Shown piece after piece: positions 51,647-64,000 of a stretch of 64,000 nt of DNA. Below the pieces are notes generated by a model, which had not been told where the DNA came from, did not search any database, and saw nothing but the letters and a program-made list of their open reading frames with translations. Both the position numbers and the translations under genes were made by a program. Numbering within the stretch: position 1 is the stretch's first letter; each line of letters begins with the position of its first letter. The DNA lies in the NCBI RefSeq assembly GCF_014648275.1, contig NZ_BMQU01000002.1, positions 310,001-374,000 on the forward strand, in the 5' to 3' direction. The DNA is from Pseudomonas laurentiana (GTDB lineage: Bacteria > Pseudomonadota > Gammaproteobacteria > Pseudomonadales > Pseudomonadaceae).

Positions 51647-51906
51647 GGGCACAATCAGGCTGTGTTTCCGATAGCAGCATGGATACCGTCAGCTGCGGGC
51701 GGTCGCCATTGTATAAGGCGGCCTGGGCTAAAACCATATTTAAAATGGGTTTACTGGTGCTCTTTAAAGCCCCAAAGCAGCGCAAAACAAGGCACGAACG
51801 TCCCAAGTATGCGGCAACTTTGTCCGCTTAAAGATTTCGATTCTCATCAGCAATGTTATAGAGTAACCACACACGCGCACCTCAACCCCTGCACTGCGAA
51901 CGACAC

Positions 51907-54316: not shown

Positions 54317-55140
54317 GCCAGCCTCCTGCGCAGCAAACCACTGAGTTGATCGGCCAGCCAGACCAGCCCCAGGAACGTCAACAGCATGCTGGCCACTTCC
54401 GCACCAGCAAACATGCGCATCGACAAGTCGATCTGCTGGCCCAACCCGCCAGCACCCACAAAGCCCATGACGACCGAAGCCCGGATGGCGCATTCCCAGC
54501 GATAGACGGTGTACGACACCAGCTCGGTACCCGCACACGGCAAGATGCCGTAGAAGAAGGCTCCCAGACGACTGCTGCCGGCCTGCAGCAACGCGTGAGC
54601 AGGACGCTGATCGACCGACTCGAAAATTTCCGCATAGACCTTGCCCAACATGCCGCTGTAAGTAATGGCGATGGCCAGCACACCCGCTGTCGGGCCAAGG
54701 CCCACGGCCCGTACAAACAGCAGCGCCCAGACGATTTCCGGGACACTGCGCAGGAACACCATCAGCGCACGCACTGGCCAGCGCAGGGCCACAGCCAAGG
54801 CGCTGGGGCGACCGCCCCTCGAGGCTGCGGATAACGACAACGCTCGACTGGCCAGCAAGCTGGCCGGGATCGCCAGGAGTAAGGCCAGCGTCATGCCCGC
54901 CGTGGCGACCGCGAGGGTTTGCAGCGTAGCGCGCCATAACAACTCGAGGAACGCGTGGTCATGGGCGGGCGGCCAAAAGGCGCTGACGAAGCTGCCGATC
55001 TGACGACGGCTGTCGGCCTGGAACAACACACCGAGATCGAGTTCGCTCACGTGCAGCCCCGGCCAGAGCAGCACCAGCGCCAACAGGGTCAGCAACAGCC
55101 GTGGCGCGGCTGCCGGGTCGCGCTGGTCACGACTCAGCAT
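54313..55140 (-). CDS. PhnE-type ABC permease (first copy)
   Basis: 275 residues with six helices and the PhnE-like EIFESVDQRPAHALLQAGSS ... ILPCAGTELVSYTVYRWECAIRASVVMGFVGAGGLGQQ region. Start ATG 55140 overlaps the end of the ATPase gene by 7 bases. It and the second permease share the same C-terminal pattern and arose by duplication. Confidence 0.88.
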   Translation of the reverse strand: MLSRDQRDPAAAPRLLLTLLALVLLWPGLHVSELDLGVLFQADSRRQIGSFVSAFWPPAHDHAFLELLWRATLQTLAVATAGMTLALLLAIPASLLASRALSLSAASRGGRPSALAVALRWPVRALMVFLRSVPEIVWALLFVRAVGLGPTAGVLAIAITYSGMLGKVYAEIFESVDQRPAHALLQAGSSRLGAFFYGILPCAGTELVSYTVYRWECAIRASVVMGFVGAGGLGQQIDLSMRMFAGAEVASMLLTFLGLVWLADQLSGLLRRRLA

Positions 55141-55928
55141 CGGGGAATCTGCAGGGTCAGCGGCGCGACTGGCTGAGCAGGCAAGGTCAGTTGCTCATTG
55201 GCGTACAGGGCATCCAGCAAGTCCTCGGTCACGTCAGCAGCCGGTTTGTCAAAGACCAGGCGACCTTCACGAATACCGATCACCCGCGCGAAGTGGGCCA
55301 ATGCCAGGTCTACCGCATGCAAGCTTGCGACCAGGGTAATACCTCGTACGCGGGCGTAGCTGCACAGGGTACCCAGGCTGTGTGCGGCGAGCACCGGATC
55401 CATCGCGGATACCGGTTCGTCGGCCAGCAGCAAGTCCGGCTGCTGGTACAGCACGCGGGCGATGCCCACGCGCTGCAATTGACCGCCGGACAATTGTTGG
55501 CACTGCACGAACAGTTTGTCTGCCAGGTCCAACGTCGACAGCACCGCACGCGCGCCCGCCACATCGATGGGGCGCAACAGGCTGAGCAACCCGCGCAACG
55601 TCCCCCACTGCCCCAGTCGGCCAGCCAATACCGTCGTGACCACCCGCTGACGCGGCGGCAAGGGTGGCACCTGATGAATCAGCCCCACCCGTGCGCGCAG
55701 CTTTTGCCGCAGTCGGGCCGGAAGGCGCCAGGGTCGCTGGCCAAGTACTTCCAGCTCGCCGCCAGCCGGCTCGATGGCCGTGGCAATCAGGTGCAACAAA
55801 CTCGACTTGCCAGCACCAGAGGGGCCAATAATTGCCACCTGCTCGCCGGCCTCAATAGTCATGTTCAGGTCACGCAGGGCTTGCAGCGCGCCATGGTTGA
55901 GGCAGGCCCCGGTCAGTCGGATCGTCAT
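55134..55928 (-). CDS. PhnC-type ABC transporter ATP-binding protein
   Basis: 264 residues: Walker A GPSGAGKSS, Q-loop LIHQVPPL, signature LSGGQLQRVGIARVL, Walker B LLLADEPVSAMD, switch histidine in VASLHAVDLAL. PhnC-like in length and in the C-terminal extension. Start ATG 55928 overlaps the binding protein stop by ATGA. It powers import through the two downstream permeases. Confidence 0.9.
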   Translation of the reverse strand: MTIRLTGACLNHGALQALRDLNMTIEAGEQVAIIGPSGAGKSSLLHLIATAIEPAGGELEVLGQRPWRLPARLRQKLRARVGLIHQVPPLPPRQRVVTTVLAGRLGQWGTLRGLLSLLRPIDVAGARAVLSTLDLADKLFVQCQQLSGGQLQRVGIARVLYQQPDLLLADEPVSAMDPVLAAHSLGTLCSYARVRGITLVASLHAVDLALAHFARVIGIREGRLVFDKPAADVTEDLLDALYANEQLTLPAQPVAPLTLQIPRC

Positions 55929-56776
55929 TTCAGCAGTTCAGCAGCCCGCGCGGCCTCTTCGATACCGGCATAGTTCTCCGGGCGCGTTTCGATGAAACGA
56001 GTAGCCGCCTGCAGGTCCAGAATGGCCTTGTGCTCGGGGTTGGCTGGATCAAGGGCCAGGAACGCTGTCTTGATCTTCTGCGCCAGCACCGGATCGAGGC
56101 TGCCGCGCACGGTCCAGTTGTAGTCGAAGTAGGTAGGCGTAGTGGCGAACACATGCACCTTGCTGGTATCGACCTTGCCTGAGGCTACCAGTTTGTCCCA
56201 CACACTGGCGTTGAGCACACCGCCGTCGACCTTGCCCGCCTGCACCCAGGCAGCCGTCGCATCATGGGCCCCGGAATAGGCCACCCGACTGAAGAACGTT
56301 TCCGGCTTGATGCCGTCCTTGAGCATGAAGTAGCGCGGCATCAGGCTGCCGGAGGTGGACGATACCGAGCCAAAGGCAAAGGTCTTGCCCTTGAGGTCAG
56401 CCAACTGTTTGACCTGCGGGTCGGCCGTGATGAATTTGCTGGTAAACCGGGCGTCCTGCTCGCGCTGCACCAAAGGCATGGCACCCGGGCTTTTCTGGTG
56501 AACCTGGACGAAGGTGAAACCGCCGAGCCAGGCGAGGTCCAAGCGATCACTGGCCAATGCCTCGACCACTGCCGGGTAGTCGGCCACCGGCACGAACTCC
56601 ACCTTCATGCCCAACTGCTGCTCCAGGTAAGCGCCCAGCGGCTTGAACTTGCGCAGCAGCTCGGTTGGCGCCTCATCGGGAATCGCGCTGACGCGCAAGG
56701 TTTCGCTGGCCTGGGCCAGAAAAGCGGAACCACTCAGTACCAGGCCGGCAAGCAGTGCCAGGGTGTTTTTGAGCAT
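55925..56776 (-). CDS. PhnD-like periplasmic binding protein, probable selenium oxyanion transporter
   Basis: 283 residues, signal peptide MLKNTLALLAGLVLSGSAFL ending near AQA. PhnD fold: RVSAIPDEAPTELLRKFKPLGAYLEQQLGM, DLAWLGGFTFVQVH, GKTFAFGSVSSTSGSLMPRYFM. PhnD relatives bind phosphonate, phosphite or other oxyanions. The operon is divergent, 117 bases away, from selD-mnmH. A PhnCDE-type set with two permeases beside selenium genes and no C-P lyase points to selenate or selenite rather than phosphonate. ATG 56776 has GGAG 8 bases upstream. Confidence 0.82.
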   Translation of the reverse strand: MLKNTLALLAGLVLSGSAFLAQASETLRVSAIPDEAPTELLRKFKPLGAYLEQQLGMKVEFVPVADYPAVVEALASDRLDLAWLGGFTFVQVHQKSPGAMPLVQREQDARFTSKFITADPQVKQLADLKGKTFAFGSVSSTSGSLMPRYFMLKDGIKPETFFSRVAYSGAHDATAAWVQAGKVDGGVLNASVWDKLVASGKVDTSKVHVFATTPTYFDYNWTVRGSLDPVLAQKIKTAFLALDPANPEHKAILDLQAATRFIETRPENYAGIEEAARAAELLK

Positions 56777-56843
56777 GGGGATTCTCCGGTTCAACAGCGC
56801 AATAGGTAGGGCTTACAGGTGCCGAATTATAGGAGTTAGCAGC

Positions 56844-56860
56844 GCAAAGACCAGCTTTGC
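56844..56860. promoter_or_regulatory. Inverted repeat in the divergent transporter-selD promoter region
   Basis: GCAAAG and CTTTGC arms around a 5-base spacer, midway between the two divergent starts. TAGAAT next to it may be a -10 element for selD. Possible shared operator. Confidence 0.3.
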
Positions 56861-56893
56861 TAGAATCCGACGCGATAACTCCTGAGGTGTGAC

Positions 56894-57928
56894 ATGAGCG
56901 AACCCATTCGCCTGACCCAGTACAGCCACGGTGCTGGCTGCGGCTGCAAGATTTCTCCCAAGGTGCTGGACGTGATCCTGGCCGGTAGTGGCGCCCAACA
57001 TCTGGACCCGAAACTCTGGGTCGGCAATGCCTCCCGCGATGATGCCGCCGTCTACGCACTCGATGACGAACGCGGCGTGGTCTCGACCACCGACTTCTTC
57101 ATGCCAATTGTCGATGACCCCTACGATTTCGGCCGTATTGCGGCAACCAACGCCATCAGCGACATCTATGCAATGGGTGGCGACCCACTCATGGCCATCG
57201 CGATCCTCGGCTGGCCGGTGAACCTGCTACCCGCAGAAGTGGCCCGCGAAGTGATTCGAGGTGGTCGCGCCGTATGCGATGCCGCAGGCATTCCCCTGGC
57301 GGGAGGCCACTCCATTGATGCACCCGAGCCGATTTTCGGCCTGGCCGTCACCGGCGTGGTCGAAAAACGCCACATGAAGCGTAACGACACCGCTACTCGC
57401 GGTTGCCGCCTCTACCTGAGCAAGCCACTGGGGATCGGCATCCTCACCACGGCGGAAAAAAAAGCCCGGTTGCGCGAACAGGACAAGTACCTGGCCCGCG
57501 ACTGGATGTGCACCTTGAACACCCCCGGGAGCCGATTCGGCAAGCTGGAGGGTGTCAAGGCAATGACCGACGTCACCGGTTTCGGCCTGCTCGGCCACCT
57601 GGTGGAAATGGCCGACGGCAGCAACCTGACCGCACGCATCATCTACGGCGCCGTGCCGCGTCTGCCTGGTGTCGATTACTACCTGGCTGAAGGTTGCGTG
57701 CCCGGTGGCACGCAACGCAACTTCGACAGCTACGGCGAAAAGATCGCAGCCCTGAATGATGAACAGAAAAACCTGCTCTGCGATCCACAGACCAGCGGCG
57801 GCCTGTTGGTCGCGGTAAGCCCTGAAGGTGAAGCCGAGTTCCTGACTGTAGCCGCCGAACTGGGCCTGACACTGGCCCCGATCGGTGAACTGGTCGAGCG
57901 ACAGCGACACGCGGTAGAGGTGATGTAA
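56894..57928 (+). CDS. selD: Selenophosphate synthase (selenide, water dikinase)
   Basis: 344 residues. N-terminal [15 protein letters not shown] carries the catalytic C16 and K19 (C17 and K20 in E. coli). The ATP-binding metal aspartates appear in [17 protein letters not shown] and [13 protein letters not shown], and [11 protein letters not shown] is intact. Makes selenophosphate from selenide and ATP. It has Cys, not selenocysteine, at position 16. GAGGTG precedes the ATG. Stop and mnmH start overlap by one base (TAATG), so selenophosphate goes straight to the tRNA enzyme. Confidence 0.95.
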
Positions 57929-59031
57929 TGGCTGACAACACCTGTGACTACCGCACACTGTTTCTCAAGGATGTTGCGCTGATGGACGTTCGCGCCCCCG
58001 TTGAGTTCAACAAAGGGGCCTTCCCCTGCGCAATCAACCAGCCCTTGATGAACGATCAGGAACGTCAGCGGGTTGGCACCTGCTATAAGCAGCATGGCCA
58101 GCAAGCCGCTATCGAACTGGGCCACCAACTCGTAAGCGGCAAAACCAAGGACGAGCGTATCGCCGCCTGGACAGCCTTTGCCAAGGCTAATCCAAGTGGT
58201 TACCTGTACTGCTTTCGTGGCGGGCTGCGCTCACAGATCACCCAGCAATGGCTCAAGGATGAGGCCGGTATCGACTACCCGCGTGTAGTCGGCGGCTACA
58301 AGGCGATGCGGACCTTCCTCCTGGAGACCACCCAGCAGGCGGTGGGCCACTGCGATTTCGTGCTGGTAGGCGGGCTCACCGGCACCGGCAAGACCGAGGT
58401 GATCCACGCCTTGCGCAACGCCATTGACCTGGAAGGGCTGGCCAACCACCGTGGCTCGAGCTTCGGCAAGCGCGCCACCGGCCAACCGGCACAGATTGAC
58501 TTTGAAAACCGCCTGGCCATCGACCTGCTGAAAAAGCGCGATGCTGGTATCGAACAGTTCGTGCTGGAGGACGAAAGCCGCCTGGTCGGCAGCTGCAACC
58601 TGCCTCTGGAGCTCTACCAGGGCATGCAGCAGTACCCCATGGTCTGGCTGGAAGACAGCCTGGAACACCGTATCGAACGCATCCTTCAGGACTACGTCAC
58701 AGGTTTGTGTGCCGAGTTCATCGCCGTCCACGGCGAGGAGACGGGGTTCGCACAGTATGCCCAGCGCCTGCAAAACAGCATGGCGAACATCCAGAAACGC
58801 CTGGGTGGCGAGCGCTACAAGCGTTTCTCTACCCTGCTGCAGGACGCGCTCGATGAGCAGCAACGCAGTGCTCAGGTCGACTTGCACCGCGGTTGGATCG
58901 CAGGCCTGCTGAACGAGTATTACGACCCGATGTACGCCTTCCAGCGCGCCAGCAAGAACGAACGGGTTGAGTTCGTCGGTAGCCAACAGGCGCTGATCGA
59001 GTATCTGCAACAGCGCGCAATACGTCGATAA
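57928..59031 (+). CDS. mnmH: tRNA 2-selenouridine synthase
   Basis: 367 residues (also called SelU/YbbB). Rhodanese domain 1-130 with the catalytic C95 in [12 protein letters not shown], then a P-loop domain with [10 protein letters not shown] near 147. It replaces sulfur by selenium at the wobble 2-thiouridine of Lys, Glu and Gln tRNAs using selenophosphate. Coupled to selD by a one-base overlap. With no selA or selB in the window, this pathway seems to be the local selenium use. Confidence 0.95.
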
Positions 59032-59145
59032 CCGAAAAGTTTCATGAACGGCACCCGACACACAAAGTAACATTCGCACGCACCGTTATAAGGTTACACG
59101 GCCTCAAACAATGCAGGGTCAACCATTGCACTGTGACCGGCCGTG

Positions 59146-59250: not shown

Positions 59251-61197
59251 ATGAGGGTCGACCTCGACACTGATAAAGCCCAGCTGGCAGCCCTGCCGCG
59301 CTTCCAGCATGCAGCCTTGCATGCCCGACACCTCCTGATCATGGGGCTGGTATCAGGCGTGCTGATTGGTCTGCTGTTGCTCGCGGCACTTTTTGTTGAC
59401 TTGTTTGCCGCCGACTCAATCTGGCTGCCCCTGCTGTGCAACACTGCGGCCACGCTGCTCTTGCTGGCCGCTGCCACACAGGCGGCCTGGCGTGTTGCCA
59501 AATGGCGCGCCAGTGCCTTGCAGGATGAACCAACACCAGGCGCGGATGGCTCCAACAGCAATACCGAGCAATCCCTGGCAGCACTCAGCCCCTATGACCG
59601 CCTGCTGGAGCATGTCAGTCAGGGCAGCCTTGCCTTGCTACGCCACATTGGGCTCAGCGCAGTCTGGATCACCGGGCTTTCGCTGCTGGCATTACTCTGT
59701 GTAAAGGGAGGCTGGCGCCTCGACCTGCCCGCAGCGCCACTTGGGCAGAATGCAAGCGTAGCGGTCGGTGTGGCGTTACTGGTGGCTTTCGCACTGCTAG
59801 TGCTGGAGCGACAGCTCAGCGCCAACAGCTCACTGCAGTGGCCTGAGGCAGCTGGCCTGGCGATGCTCAGCCGGGTGGTTATCGCCAGCCTCCTGATCGC
59901 CGCCCTGTGCCTGTCCTTTGTCTCGGCCGAAACAAATTGGCCAGTACGCCTGGCGGTGCTGAGTGGCCTGCTGCCCGCACTGGTGGCGCTGGAGTTGATA
60001 CTGCGCGCGCTGCTCTCTGTCTTCAGCCCACAACGTCCAACCATTGAGCCACAGTTCATCGCTGAGAGTTTCATTGCCAGCTTGCTACAGTGGCCGCCAC
60101 GCCCCCTGGACAGCCTGCAAGACGCACTGCAACAACGCTTTGGTATCGATCTGCGCCAGGTATGGGCATTCGGGTTCATGCGTCGAGCATTTCTGCCAGT
60201 GCTGACGCTGGTCGCGCTGGTAGGCTGGCTACTCAGCGGCATCAGCGAAGTGCCCATGAACGAACGTGGCATCTACGAACGCTTTGGCAAGCCGATGGAA
60301 GTGCTCAATCCAGGGCTCCACGCCGGATTGCCCTGGCCGTTTGGCCGGGTACGAGCCGTGGAGAACGGTGTTATCCACGAAGTGGCGAGTAGCAGCGGCG
60401 AGCTTTCCTCGGAGACCGCAACCACTGCCGAAGGGCCTGCGCCAGACAGCGCCAACCGCATGTGGGATGCCTCGCACCAGAGCGAGAAGTCGCAAGTCAT
60501 CGCCAGTGCGAACGACGGCAAGCAGAGCTTCCAGGTGGTCAACATGGACGTGCGCTTTGTCTACCGCATTGGTCTGAGCGATCAGGCCGCACTGGCGGCG
60601 ACCTATAACAGTGCCGACGTGCCAGCCTTGATCCGCAGCACCGCCAGCCGGGTGCTGGTTCACAACTTCGCCACGCGCACCCTCGATGATCTTCTCGGAG
60701 AGGAGCGGCTGGCACTGGCTGCGGACATCGGCAATGCCGTACAGGGCGACCTCGACCGCATGAACAGTGGCGTCGAACTTCTCGCCACGGTCGTCGAAGC
60801 CATCCACCCGCCTGCGGGTGCTGCCAATGCCTATCACGGCGTACAGGCCGCGCAAATCGGGGCCAAGGCACTGATTGCCCGAGAACGCGGCACAGCGGCC
60901 GAAACGACCCATCAGGCACGACTGCAAGCCAGCATTATCAGTGATCGTGCCAATGCCGCCGCCCATGAGACGCAGGCCGCAGCACACGCCGCCGGCTTGC
61001 GCTTCGATGCCGAGCAACGCGCCTGGCGCACTGCCGGCCAAGCCTTTATCAATGAACAGTACTTCAGCCAACTTGGCCTGGGCCTAGCCAACGCCAAGGC
61101 GTTGATACTCGATCACCGTATCGCCGTGCAGGAACCGCCAACCCTCGACCTCAGAACTTTTGCCGCGCCAATCGACCCCGGCAAAGCACATCCGTAA
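59251..61197 (+). CDS. SPFH/HflK-like membrane protein with long N-terminal membrane region
   Basis: 648 residues, much longer than ordinary HflK (about 420). Residues 1-330 contain about seven helices (27-50, 58-78, 132-152, 168-185, 200-225, 230-255, 305-322). An SPFH (band 7) domain follows from about 325 (ISEVPMNERGIYERFGKP ... GLHAGLPWPFGRV) to about 530, then an Ala-rich coiled tail (AAHETQAAAHAAGLRFDAEQRA). HflK-type proteins form a membrane cage with HflC that modulates FtsH. ATG 59251 has GGAG 6 bases upstream and is preferred over ATG 59236. The extra helices and the downstream P-type ATPase set it apart from hflKC. Confidence 0.85.
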   Translation: MRVDLDTDKAQLAALPRFQHAALHARHLLIMGLVSGVLIGLLLLAALFVDLFAADSIWLPLLCNTAATLLLLAAATQAAWRVAKWRASALQDEPTPGADGSNSNTEQSLAALSPYDRLLEHVSQGSLALLRHIGLSAVWITGLSLLALLCVKGGWRLDLPAAPLGQNASVAVGVALLVAFALLVLERQLSANSSLQWPEAAGLAMLSRVVIASLLIAALCLSFVSAETNWPVRLAVLSGLLPALVALELILRALLSVFSPQRPTIEPQFIAESFIASLLQWPPRPLDSLQDALQQRFGIDLRQVWAFGFMRRAFLPVLTLVALVGWLLSGISEVPMNERGIYERFGKPMEVLNPGLHAGLPWPFGRVRAVENGVIHEVASSSGELSSETATTAEGPAPDSANRMWDASHQSEKSQVIASANDGKQSFQVVNMDVRFVYRIGLSDQAALAATYNSADVPALIRSTASRVLVHNFATRTLDDLLGEERLALAADIGNAVQGDLDRMNSGVELLATVVEAIHPPAGAANAYHGVQAAQIGAKALIARERGTAAETTHQARLQASIISDRANAAAHETQAAAHAAGLRFDAEQRAWRTAGQAFINEQYFSQLGLGLANAKALILDHRIAVQEPPTLDLRTFAAPIDPGKAHP

Positions 61198-61218
61198 CGG
61201 CCAGCAGGAGCGCACCCT

Positions 61219-62232
61219 TTGAGTTCATCGCACAGCCACTCCGGGCATGCCCACGACCATCACGATCACGATCATGACCACCCACCGACGTCCGGTGCAT
61301 TGCCTTGGCGGCGCATCGCCTTGGCGGCACTGCTGGTACTGTTCGCCGCCGCGTCCGCCTGCCTGGTGCAAGTACGCTCAGGCGAGGCCACAGTGATCAC
61401 CCGCTTCGGCAATCCGGCACGGGTGCTACTGGATCCTGGCCTAGCCTGGCGCCTGCCCGCGCCCTTCGAGTCGGCAATACCGGTTGATCTGCGCCTGCGT
61501 ACAACCTCCAGCGGCTTGCAAGATGTCGGTACGCGCGATGGCCTGCGCATCATCGTGCAGGCCTACGTTGCCTGGCAGGTACAAGCCGACCCGGAAAACA
61601 TCCAGCGTTTCATGCGGGCGGTACAGAACCAGCCCGACGAAGCTGCGCGACAAATCCGCACCTTCGTCGGCTCGGCATTGGAAACCAGCGCCAGCGGCTT
61701 CGATCTTGCCAGCCTGGTCAACACCGACGCCAACCAAGTGCATATTGCCGACTTTGAGGCACGCTTGCGTGGGCAAATCGAACAACAGTTGCTCAGCACC
61801 TACGGTGTACGCGTCTTGCAGGTGGGCATTGAGCGCCTGACGCTACCCTCGGTCACCCTGGGGGCCACGGTCGACCGCATGCGTGCCGAACGTGAAACCA
61901 TTGCCACTGAACGCACTGCCGAGGGCAAACACCTGGCCGCCGAAATTCGCTCTGCGGCTGAACGCGATGCGCGTATTTTGCAGGCCGATGCATCGGTACA
62001 GGCCGCCAGTATTGAAGCCCAATCGCGGGTCCAGGCCGCCGAGCTCTACGGTAAGGCCTACGCCAGCGCCCCCGAGTTGTACAACCTGCTGCGCTCGCTG
62101 GATACCTTGGGCACCCTGGTCAATGCCAACACGCGCTTGATCCTGCGCACCGACGCGGCGCCCTTCCGGACATTGGTCGAGGGGCCCGCGAACCTGGTAC
62201 CTCCCGGGCATAACGGCGGACAGCAACCGTGA
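61219..62232 (+). CDS. SPFH/HflC-like protein with histidine-rich N-terminus
   Basis: 337 residues. Residues 3-21 read like a metal sponge (SSHSHSGHAHDHHDHDHDH). A single helix at about 33-50 and an SPFH domain of the HflC type follow (VRSGEATVITRFGNPARVLLDPGLAWRLPAPF, TRDGLRIIVQAYVAWQV, GVRVLQVGIERLTLP). TTG at 61219 has AGGAG 8 bases upstream. It lies 21 bases after the large SPFH gene and its stop overlaps the next gene by GTGA. The His-rich stretch faces the cytoplasm if topology is N-in, as for single-helix HflC with a periplasmic SPFH cage, and could bind zinc, nickel or copper ions. Confidence 0.85.
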   Translation: MSSSHSHSGHAHDHHDHDHDHPPTSGALPWRRIALAALLVLFAAASACLVQVRSGEATVITRFGNPARVLLDPGLAWRLPAPFESAIPVDLRLRTTSSGLQDVGTRDGLRIIVQAYVAWQVQADPENIQRFMRAVQNQPDEAARQIRTFVGSALETSASGFDLASLVNTDANQVHIADFEARLRGQIEQQLLSTYGVRVLQVGIERLTLPSVTLGATVDRMRAERETIATERTAEGKHLAAEIRSAAERDARILQADASVQAASIEAQSRVQAAELYGKAYASAPELYNLLRSLDTLGTLVNANTRLILRTDAAPFRTLVEGPANLVPPGHNGGQQP

Positions 62233-63275
62233 ACCCTGAACGTAACGTATCCGCATCAGACAGCCCTTGGCTACAGGCCAGCCGCCTGGCCTTTATCGCC
62301 CTCTACGGGATTACCCTGGTGGCCGCACTTGGCTGGGCAATTTCCAACATTCGCCAGATTGGTCCTGAAAGCCGAGCGGTGGTACTGCGCTTGGGCGCAC
62401 TGACGCGGATAGAGAACGCGGGCCTGCTGTTGGCCTGGCCGCGGCCCTTGGAGCAAGTGGTACTGCTGCCATCAGCCGATCGCATCATCGAACGACGCGT
62501 CGAAACCTTGCTGCGTTCGGCGCAGGCACAAAAAGCCGAGCTTGGCGCTGGACCGCTCGGCGATGCACTGGCCGGCTCCGGTTATTTGCTGACCGGCGAC
62601 GCCGGGGTCGTCCAACTGGATGTGCGGTTGTTTTATAAAGTCACCGACCCCTACGCCTATGTCCTTCAGGGCGAACATGTTGCACCTGCGCTGGATCGCC
62701 TGGTAGCACGCAGTGCAGTGACCGTCTGTGCCTCACGCGACCTTGACACCATTCTGGTTGCACGCCCGGAACTGGTCGGTACTGACAACCAGCTTGCCGA
62801 ACGCCGCGAGCGCCTGCGCAGTGACCTGGTACAGGGCATCAACACACAGCTGGCCGCACTGGAGGCAACCGGCACCGGACTGGGCATACACATCGAGCGG
62901 GTCGATCTGCAATCGAGCCTGCCACGCGACGCCGTGAATGCCTTCAATGCCGTACTGACCGCCAGTCAGCAGGCGGAAAAGAACGTCGCCAGTGCACGCA
63001 ACGACGCCGCCAAGCAAATTCAAGCGGCAACGCAGGCGGCGGATCGCACCCTTCAGGTAGCCAAAGCCCAAGCCGGCGAACGTGTCGCCAGGGCCAACAC
63101 CGACACGGCAACCATCATCAGCCTGGCCCAAACACAGCGTACGCATACTGACCCTGGCTTGCTGCTGCGCCTCTATCGCGAACGTATCACGAAGATTCTT
63201 GCACAAGCCGGCTCGATTACCACCCTTGACCCCCATGACGATGCCCACCTTATCCTGCAGGGCACGCAACCATGA
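62229..63275 (+). CDS. Third SPFH/HflK-like protein
   Basis: 348 residues, N-terminal helix at about 17-38 then SPFH domain (IGPESRAVVLRLGALTRIENAGLLLAWPRPLE ... VVQLDVRLFYKVTDPYAYVLQ), and a coiled tail (SQQAEKNVASARNDAAKQIQAATQAADRT). Starts with GTG at 62229, overlapping the HflC-like stop, and its stop overlaps the P-type ATPase start by ATGA. Most similar in outline to HflK but without a His- or Gly-rich N-terminus. Three SPFH proteins in a row is unlike hflK-hflC, which has two. Confidence 0.85.
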   Translation: MNPERNVSASDSPWLQASRLAFIALYGITLVAALGWAISNIRQIGPESRAVVLRLGALTRIENAGLLLAWPRPLEQVVLLPSADRIIERRVETLLRSAQAQKAELGAGPLGDALAGSGYLLTGDAGVVQLDVRLFYKVTDPYAYVLQGEHVAPALDRLVARSAVTVCASRDLDTILVARPELVGTDNQLAERRERLRSDLVQGINTQLAALEATGTGLGIHIERVDLQSSLPRDAVNAFNAVLTASQQAEKNVASARNDAAKQIQAATQAADRTLQVAKAQAGERVARANTDTATIISLAQTQRTHTDPGLLLRLYRERITKILAQAGSITTLDPHDDAHLILQGTQP

Positions 63276-64000
63276 GTGAGCACACCGGGATGCCCCATAC
63301 CCACGATCAGCGCGGCCATGATCACGCGGCCCACTGCCACTCGCATGCGCATTTCACCACTGCACTGCTCAGCCAGGCTGAACAGCGCAGTGCCGCCCGA
63401 CAACTGAGTCTGGCAATGGTCGCCCTGGGCCTTCTCGGCCTTGGGCTACTATGGCGCGGGTTCGCGGCGCAGCAGGAAGGCGTCAGCCAACTGTTGTTCG
63501 GGGCCGCCTCGTTGCTCGTCGCACTCCCGGTGTTGAAAGCCGCCTGGGGCAGCCTGCGCCATCCAAGCCTGCACGGCATCACTGATCAACTTATCGCACT
63601 AGCCATGATTGGCGCATGGGCCAGTGGTGACCTGCTGACCGCAGCGCTGTTGCCGATCATCATGATATTCGGACATGTGCTTGAGGAGCGTAGCGTCATA
63701 GGCTCTCAAGAAGCCATCGAGGCGCTTGGGCGACTGACGCGCAGCCAGGCCAGGCTGATTGACGCCGACGGCGGCATACGCGAAGTGGACAACACTGAAC
63801 TGCGGTCCGGCGATCAAATTGAAGTGCGCGCCGGAGACCGCATACCCGCAGACGGCCGGGTGCTTGAAGGCCAGGCCAGCCTCGATACGGCGCCCATCAC
63901 CGGCGAGTCGGTACCGCTTGAGGCCAGTGCAGGCACCGAGGTGTTCGGCGGAGCAATCAACCTCGATGGATTGCTGCGTATCGAGGTCACCCGCATCGGC
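63272..64000 (+). CDS. P1B-type cation-transporting ATPase, N-terminal part (3' truncated by the window)
   Basis: 243 residues before the window ends. The N-terminus is histidine-rich (MPHTHDQRGHDHAAHCHSHAH) in place of an HMA domain. Helices at about 45-61, 70-90, 102-118 and 120-135 precede the actuator domain with the motif APITGESVP (residues about 217-225) and AGDRIPADGRVL. This is the ZntA/CadA/CopA superfamily; CPx, DKTGT and the metal-choosing helices lie outside the window. ATG 63272 overlaps the third SPFH gene by ATGA, so it is the fourth gene of the operon. Zinc, cobalt, nickel or copper cannot be told apart yet. Confidence 0.85.
   Translation, partial: MSEHTGMPHTHDQRGHDHAAHCHSHAHFTTALLSQAEQRSAARQLSLAMVALGLLGLGLLWRGFAAQQEGVSQLLFGAASLLVALPVLKAAWGSLRHPSLHGITDQLIALAMIGAWASGDLLTAALLPIIMIFGHVLEERSVIGSQEAIEALGRLTRSQARLIDADGGIREVDNTELRSGDQIEVRAGDRIPADGRVLEGQASLDTAPITGESVPLEASAGTEVFGGAINLDGLLRIEVTRIG

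Follow-up and report, generated by a model that had tools for sequence, protein, structure and literature searches.

Why should a gene for a metal-transporting P1B-type ATPase follow directly on three genes for SPFH proteins of the HflK/HflC type? The question is raised by a plus-strand run of four genes in the Pseudomonas laurentiana genome (contig NZ_BMQU01000002.1), which encodes SPFH1, SPFH2, SPFH3 and the pump in that order, and which reaches past the end of the 64,000-nucleotide stretch that was analysed (positions 310,001 to 374,000 of the contig; hereafter the window). An initial annotation of the window had suggested that the SPFH proteins partner the pump and not FtsH, perhaps as a cage or membrane microdomain around it. 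The first half of this suggestion gains from the all-or-none co-occurrence of the trio with the pump across genus, phylum and plasmid samples, which is new here, from the transfer of the genes as a unit on plasmids and from the presence of a separate hflK-hflC pair in the same genome, while the cage or microdomain is still a matter of inference. On this genomic evidence the SPFH trio most probably serves this pump as its dedicated partner.

A conserved four-gene unit

Within the genus, a strong SPFH1 match is present in 71 of 119 genomes (in one, G034, as two halves), the raw tally of 74 including three weak, short matches. The pump (E <= 1e-120) and SPFH3 (E <= 1e-30) occur in exactly these 71 genomes, the other 48 having neither, and by eye the match tables show the three genes within a few kb of one another, sharing contig and strand. 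These genus-wide searches covered SPFH1, SPFH3 and the pump; SPFH2 was checked at the loci compared, where it adjoins the other genes in 100 of 101, the exception being a 3.3-kb contig. Some of the 101 loci came from two sources, and dropping identical copies leaves 98 distinct loci, 97 of them complete. The four-gene order is kept in all 97, two of which have an additional small open reading frame (ORF) before the pump. Among the carriers are members of the P. chlororaphis or P. fluorescens group (loci L059 and L064). In a sample of the order, strong SPFH1 matches are found in 9 of 293 genomes, two in another family (117 genomes were tallied, the others with weak matches), and in a sample of the class in 1 of 369, the window genome alone. 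Across the phylum, where scoring was confined to the best three candidates of each genome, 11 of 398 genomes have SPFH1 (E <= 1e-25), and it is these 11 that have the pump (E <= 1e-130). Seven more distant loci from four families, with SPFH1 identities of 44-62%, all hold the four genes in order, and the flanking genes vary between lineages. Because the samples overlap and the genomes are related, these counts are not independent. The initial annotation would have been refuted by a gene order not conserved in other genomes, and this check did not refute it.

The same association is seen on plasmids. Among 72,556 plasmid records, SPFH1 (E <= 1e-20) is found in 10 and the pump (E <= 1e-85) in the same 10, with the four genes in one order in each. 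The carriers are seven Rhizobium replicons (some nearly identical), Klebsiella aerogenes pYD-K10_1, Burkholderia ubonensis pMSMB2035 and Paraburkholderia sprentiae pl1WSM5005. Since the plasmid copies hold all four genes in order, the unit appears to move as four genes. Both pYD-K10_1 and pMSMB2035 are typed conjugative and have transposase genes near their copies of the unit, and the P. sprentiae unit lies a few kb from genes of a zinc ABC transporter and of a PCu(A)C copper chaperone.

In the window itself the genes are tightly packed. The rechecked coordinates reproduce the junctions first described, with 21 bases between SPFH1 and SPFH2, a GTGA overlap between SPFH2 and SPFH3, and an ATGA overlap between SPFH3 and the ATPase. 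The shorter SPFH1 is likely the correct one, because residue 6 of the longer frame is the first invariant Met among 25 relatives. Coordinates of the features discussed here are collected in Table 1.

Table 1. Features of the four-gene locus in window coordinates
Feature	Coordinates	Strand	Remarks
Zur-box-like palindrome GTTATAAGGTTAC	59085..59097	+	upstream of the four genes; weak form
SPFH1	59251..61197	+	648 aa (653 if start 59236); six-helix membrane domain fused to HflK-type SPFH domain
Extra N-terminal membrane domain of SPFH1	59311..60021	+	residues 26-262; CDF-like helix arrangement by structure only
SPFH1 residues 381-414	60376..60477	+	invariant H381, W410, D411, H414; candidate periplasmic metal site
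SPFH2	61219..62232	+	HflC-type, TTG start, His-rich N-tail; tail predicted cytosolic by HflC homology
His-rich tail of SPFH2	61228..61281	+	precedes the SPFH2 helix
SPFH3	62229..63275	+	HflK-type; tree partner of SPFH1
HmtA-type P1B ATPase	63272..64000, on to window-equivalent 65245	+	657 aa, His-rich N-tail here

The SPFH proteins and the pump

The gene identities first proposed (HflK-like, HflC-like, HflK-like and P1B ATPase) agree with the top NCBIfam matches and with Pfam, which assigns Band_7 (SPFH) to each SPFH protein and E1-E2_ATPase and Hydrolase to the pump. In NCBIfam the best matches of SPFH1, SPFH2 and SPFH3 are hflK, hflC and hflK in turn, each under the equivalog cut-off (56.8 against 159.4 bits, 98.9 against 134.4 and 92.1 against 159.4), whereas a separate hflK-hflC pair elsewhere in the window genome passes both cut-offs (379.5 against 159.4 and 283.1 against 134.4 bits). 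In a phylogeny that also included HflK and HflC from several families, SPFH1 groups with SPFH3 (92/85) next to HflK, and SPFH2 adjoins HflC (84/63, a weak placement that drew a long-branch warning from the program). The window genome also holds an additional SPFH gene next to an NfeD-like gene.

The structure model of SPFH1 contains six extra helices plus the HflK-type one, so that the "about seven extra helices" of the initial annotation should read six. The arrangement of the helices resembles that of CDF zinc transporters, a likeness of predicted structure only that has no sequence support. CDF zinc transporters bind metal at an Asp/His site within the membrane, and SPFH1 showed neither a profile match to such proteins nor conserved Asp/His in its helices: Cation_efflux gave no Pfam match at 1e-3, alignment with three CDF proteins from the window genome gave an hhalign probability of 0.2, CDF chains were absent from the hmmsearch matches of the membrane domain up to E 10, and the six helices hold no invariant or near-invariant Asp/His in 29 rows. 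Eight residues of SPFH1, H362, H381, W410, D411, H414, E521, H524 and H534, are identical in all 113 rows, the most divergent of which are about 42% identical. At these positions the HflK of the window genome has Asn, Arg, three gaps, Gln, Ala and Asp, the gaps falling where W410, D411 and H414 sit in an insertion that this HflK is missing, and HflC has, by eye, a His in the motif matching H362. By homology with HflK the invariant residues would face the periplasm, and residues 381-414, with H362, E521, H524 and H534, are a candidate periplasmic metal site. Separately, the SPFH1 of G034 (G034:C1:934964-936888; L042) is encoded by two overlapping open frames, through either fission or a frameshift; they divide it around residue 341, close to where the membrane part gives way to the SPFH domain.

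The His-rich N-terminus ascribed to SPFH2 is well conserved, the tail before the helix being kept in 97 of 97 Pseudomonas-type loci with a median of 15 His (range 7-19). For the pump, the initial annotation had described a His-rich N-terminus in place of an HMA domain. This is true of the window genome, where Pfam finds no HMA domain in the pump, but it is not a family trait, since the N-tail of the pump has a median of 2 His and none at all in 13 of 97 loci; the conserved tail is that of SPFH2.

Reading the ATPase past position 64,000, as the initial annotation had advised, brought out CPC in transmembrane helix (TM) 6 and the catalytic motifs DKTGT, SSHP and GDGIND. The protein exceeds the NCBIfam cut-offs of TIGR01525 and TIGR01512 (490.8 against 313.5 bits for TIGR01512). 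ZntA-type P1B-2 pumps share the CPC in TM6 and the catalytic motifs and are among the best solved-structure matches; in ZntA, the Lys of TM7 and the Asp of TM8 have functional roles in zinc/cadmium pumping. Unlike ZntA, this pump lacks an HMA match and carries GDGxNDxLA for GDGxNDAP, Thr (after a conserved Trp) for Lys in TM7, and His-Asn for Asp-Thr in TM8. These motifs mark its clade, with CPC and GDGxNDxLA present in 108 of 108 rows, HNxxT of TM8 in 107, and the TM7 Trp in 106 by pattern and the other two by eye. The TM7 Thr and TM8 His recur in 20 aligned rows (the window pump and 19 relatives), and a zinc-pump-like paralogue in the window genome has, like ZntA, Lys and Asp at their positions. 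Six other P1B pumps of the window genome lie above the family cut-off and are 29-34% identical to this one; the P. citronellolis copy reaches 83% by tblastn. At one locus (L113) the pump match ends at residue 620 of 657 and no TM8 motif turned up, perhaps because of a frameshift in the record. Just downstream of the pump, at window-equivalent 65623-66579 (L007:9623-10579), lies a CDF gene above the DmeF equivalog cut-off, which was not found in the other 100 loci compared.

Zinc starvation and the PA2439-PA2435 locus

The initial annotation knew of no characterised system of this composition. The system is not unknown, because its gene order matches PA2439-PA2435 of P. aeruginosa: HflK-like, HflC-like, SPFH, (PA2436) and P1B pump, the SPFH trio lying in one predicted operon (PMC13086221). 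Equated by gene order and annotation, the locus is the PA2439-PA2435 (hmtA) zinc-starvation locus; its pump is HmtA by gene order, and its operon has been listed as zinc-starvation-induced with Zur at the promoter. The window genome has no gene in the place of PA2436, where a small additional ORF occurs in the copies of P. citronellolis and P. panipatensis. Related ORFs of 150-175 aa with a signal-like start stand in that place, between SPFH3 and the pump, at L069:5487-5984, L083:12199-12726 and L162:5642-6094. What holds of the original claim is that HmtA and the SPFH proteins were not joined in the literature searched. A full-text search found the two together in no paper, a wider search for SPFH-type literature had HmtA in none of the matches listed, and hmtA and the HflK-like genes stand merely side by side in lists (PMC4542158, PMC11761036); the passages on PA2439-PA2435 nowhere present the trio and the pump as a single machine.

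Zinc-starvation induction, binding of Zur to the promoter and uptake by HmtA are each reported in these papers. In a znuA mutant, PA2437, PA2438 and PA2439 were up 14.4-, 10.6- and 9.0-fold and hmtA 5.6-fold, and a weak in-silico Zur site was given for the PA2439 locus (Pederick, 2015; PMC4542158). Zur shifts the PA2439 promoter in an electrophoretic mobility shift assay (EMSA) (Ducret, 2021; PMC8531726). A 2025 proteomics preprint reports HmtA and PA2437-2439 raised in zinc depletion, with PA2436 not detected (PMC11761036), and a NAC study places the trio in the Zur regulon with log2 changes of 0.6 to 0.8, reading it as FtsH modulators (PMC9431628). In two reviews, the second of which wants confirmation, HmtA is presented as importing zinc and copper; another study used HmtA as a pump for import in E. 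coli (PMC5353632), and metal gain and hypersensitivity are reported with it in the reviews and in that study. A 2026 study of the SPFH proteins in P. aeruginosa names the trio PaFlo5-7 and suggests gene transfer; a triple deletion formed about 20% less biofilm and lost some virulence in larvae (PMC13086221). That paper finds the operon in 2 of 10 reference Pseudomonas genomes and states in its abstract that context is not conserved, from which the larger genus sample examined here (71 carriers in 119) departs. In its main text, figures aside, the terms "ATPase", "HmtA", "P-type" and "transporter" never occur.

All 98 distinct Pseudomonas-type loci carry, upstream of SPFH1, a palindrome related to GTTATAnTATAAC that matches at 9-11 of 12 positions. 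Of the seven more distant loci, four carry a box that is equalled in only 3 to 13 of 500 shuffles. A looser form of the pattern occurs at six places in the window genome and nowhere in a reversed control. Two of the five other boxes flank and separate the zigA and folE2 genes, a third (G000:C3:55568-55580; L134) lies just before a gene for phosphoribosyl-AMP cyclohydrolase (hisI-like) that is followed by a dihydroorotase gene, and the remaining two adjoin a membrane acyltransferase-like gene and a MOSC gene. Of the genes behind these boxes, we take folE2 to be a zinc-starvation paralogue, and the hisI-like/dihydroorotase pair possibly so. ZigA belongs to the P. aeruginosa Zur regulon, and FolE2 as a zinc-starvation paralogue is touched on in the same paper (PMC9431628).

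Several further features were recorded alongside. A box GTTATAGAGTAAC at window 51855-51867 lies upstream of a 388-aa open frame matching the HGSNAT_cat acetyltransferase family. Upstream of the locus, window 55134-59031 presumably holds a minus-strand ABC uptake-like system together with two plus-strand genes, selD and one for a tRNA 2-selenouridine synthase. In Rhizobium copies and one of another class (L157, L186, L187), an inverted repeat around TACGTAATAACGTATC replaces the Pseudomonas-type box upstream of SPFH1.

A proposed dome around the pump and its alternatives

What would the four proteins do together? On balance we lean, if not strongly, towards a dome of the HflK/C kind, dedicated to an HmtA-type pump that it surrounds and that takes up zinc or copper in zinc starvation. 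Here, the HflK-type SPFH1 and SPFH3 and the HflC-type SPFH2 would assemble a periplasmic dome, and the membrane patch inside it would hold the ATPase, as HflK/C holds FtsH. This four-gene machine would be made when zinc is short. The dome would stabilise the pump and concentrate metal for it, gathered in the periplasm by SPFH1 through its invariant His/Asp/Glu and in the cytosol by the His tails of SPFH2; zinc and/or copper would then move into the cytosol, where the SPFH2 tails may accept it. We infer the dome because HflK/HflC assembles around the ATP-driven membrane enzyme FtsH (PMC12048511) and stomatin forms a dome enclosing the transporter AQP1 or UT-B (PMC12407830); physical contact, metal binding and the direction of transport are likewise inferred. 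The E. coli assembly is alike in its HflK- and HflC-type subunits and, by homology, its periplasmic SPFH domain. It differs in that the partner gene here is a P1B pump, in that there are two HflK-type subunits, one with six extra helices, and in the His tail of SPFH2 and the SPFH1 insertion with its invariant His. The stomatin case shares the SPFH dome and comes from the human erythrocyte membrane, with water and urea transport proteins and no operon link.

A number of observations weigh against such a machine. The SPFH domain of the SPFH1 model has pLDDT mostly <50, too low for the model to show whether its His cluster, many further SPFH1 residues are invariant among the Pseudomonas rows, and the K. 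aerogenes plasmid copy has an SPFH2 without the His tail, with a modest one on the pump instead. The box is indistinct in three of the seven more distant loci (153 to 217 of 500 shuffles reach it), and the 10 plasmid cassettes have no clear box upstream. The mRNA of hmtA was constantly low and did not respond to zinc (PMC8531726), several of the proteomics increases miss p 0.05 (PMC11761036), hmtA is absent from the part of the NAC table that lists the trio (PMC9431628), and the second HmtA review calls hmtA an exception among Zur targets, contradicting the EMSA. A copper review holds that all PIB1-ATPases export and treats the import claim of Lewinson 2009 as phenotype-based (PMC3817396), and the PaFlo5-7 triple deletion grew normally in LB (PMC13086221).

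The first alternative, doubtful but deserving attention, is that the trio stabilises an exporting pump as an efflux or metalation platform, for instance to load periplasmic enzymes in starvation. A working precedent exists in mycobacterial PacL1-CtpC, where a membrane scaffold with a metal-binding tail is encoded with a P1B pump and stabilises it (PMC9374683), with a later effluxosome paper on the same parallel (PMC13043812); P1B pumps are held to be exporters (PMC3817396), and a cytosolic His tail would fit a donor to one. PacL1 is a DUF1490 protein and not an SPFH protein, and with an exporter it serves resistance to zinc and not zinc starvation (PMC9374683); the five proteins scanned at our locus gave no DUF1490 match. 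Export is opposed by induction through zinc shortage and not excess (PMC4542158, PMC11761036), by the metal gain and hypersensitivity noted above, and by the Thr and His that replace Lys and Asp of ZntA.

Somewhat less credible is the proposal that the trio modulates the zinc protease FtsH at times of starvation, the pump being merely co-transcribed. The zinc papers annotate and discuss the trio in this way (PMC11761036, PMC9431628), and its members are HflK/HflC relatives by profile and tree. Yet they fall under equivalog cut-offs that the genome's own hflK-hflC pair passes, SPFH1 accompanies this pump in each sample, plasmids included, and no FtsH gene is annotated in the stretches around five annotated plasmid copies, the gene table for which is incomplete. 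That the products are co-regulated but physically separate, joined by shared regulation or gene transfer alone, seems improbable: operons often contain loosely related genes, but the genes are never separated among 71, 11 and 10 carriers spanning several families, two classes and plasmids, and they stay together while their flanking genes differ by lineage.

The dome around the pump also admits a bolder version, which we consider unlikely as it stands. The SPFH dome might turn a P1B pump into an importer, by closing off its periplasmic face and loading metal through the SPFH1 His/Asp site; the pump would have changed to match in its TM7/TM8 and hinge motifs, and the SPFH2 His tails would act as cytosolic acceptor. 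If this were true, the dispute over the direction of HmtA would stem from assaying the pump without its dome.

A dedicated dome would offer a concrete, testable function for the orphan PaFlo5-7 proteins, whose deletion showed little in the conditions reported, zinc starvation not being among them (PMC13086221). HmtA has been hard to place, and it may have been judged without the partners that are always found with the pump here. A dome of this kind would carry the SPFH principle, seen with FtsH and with stomatin and AQP1/UT-B, over to an active metal pump, and the case is relevant to whether any P1B ATPase imports.

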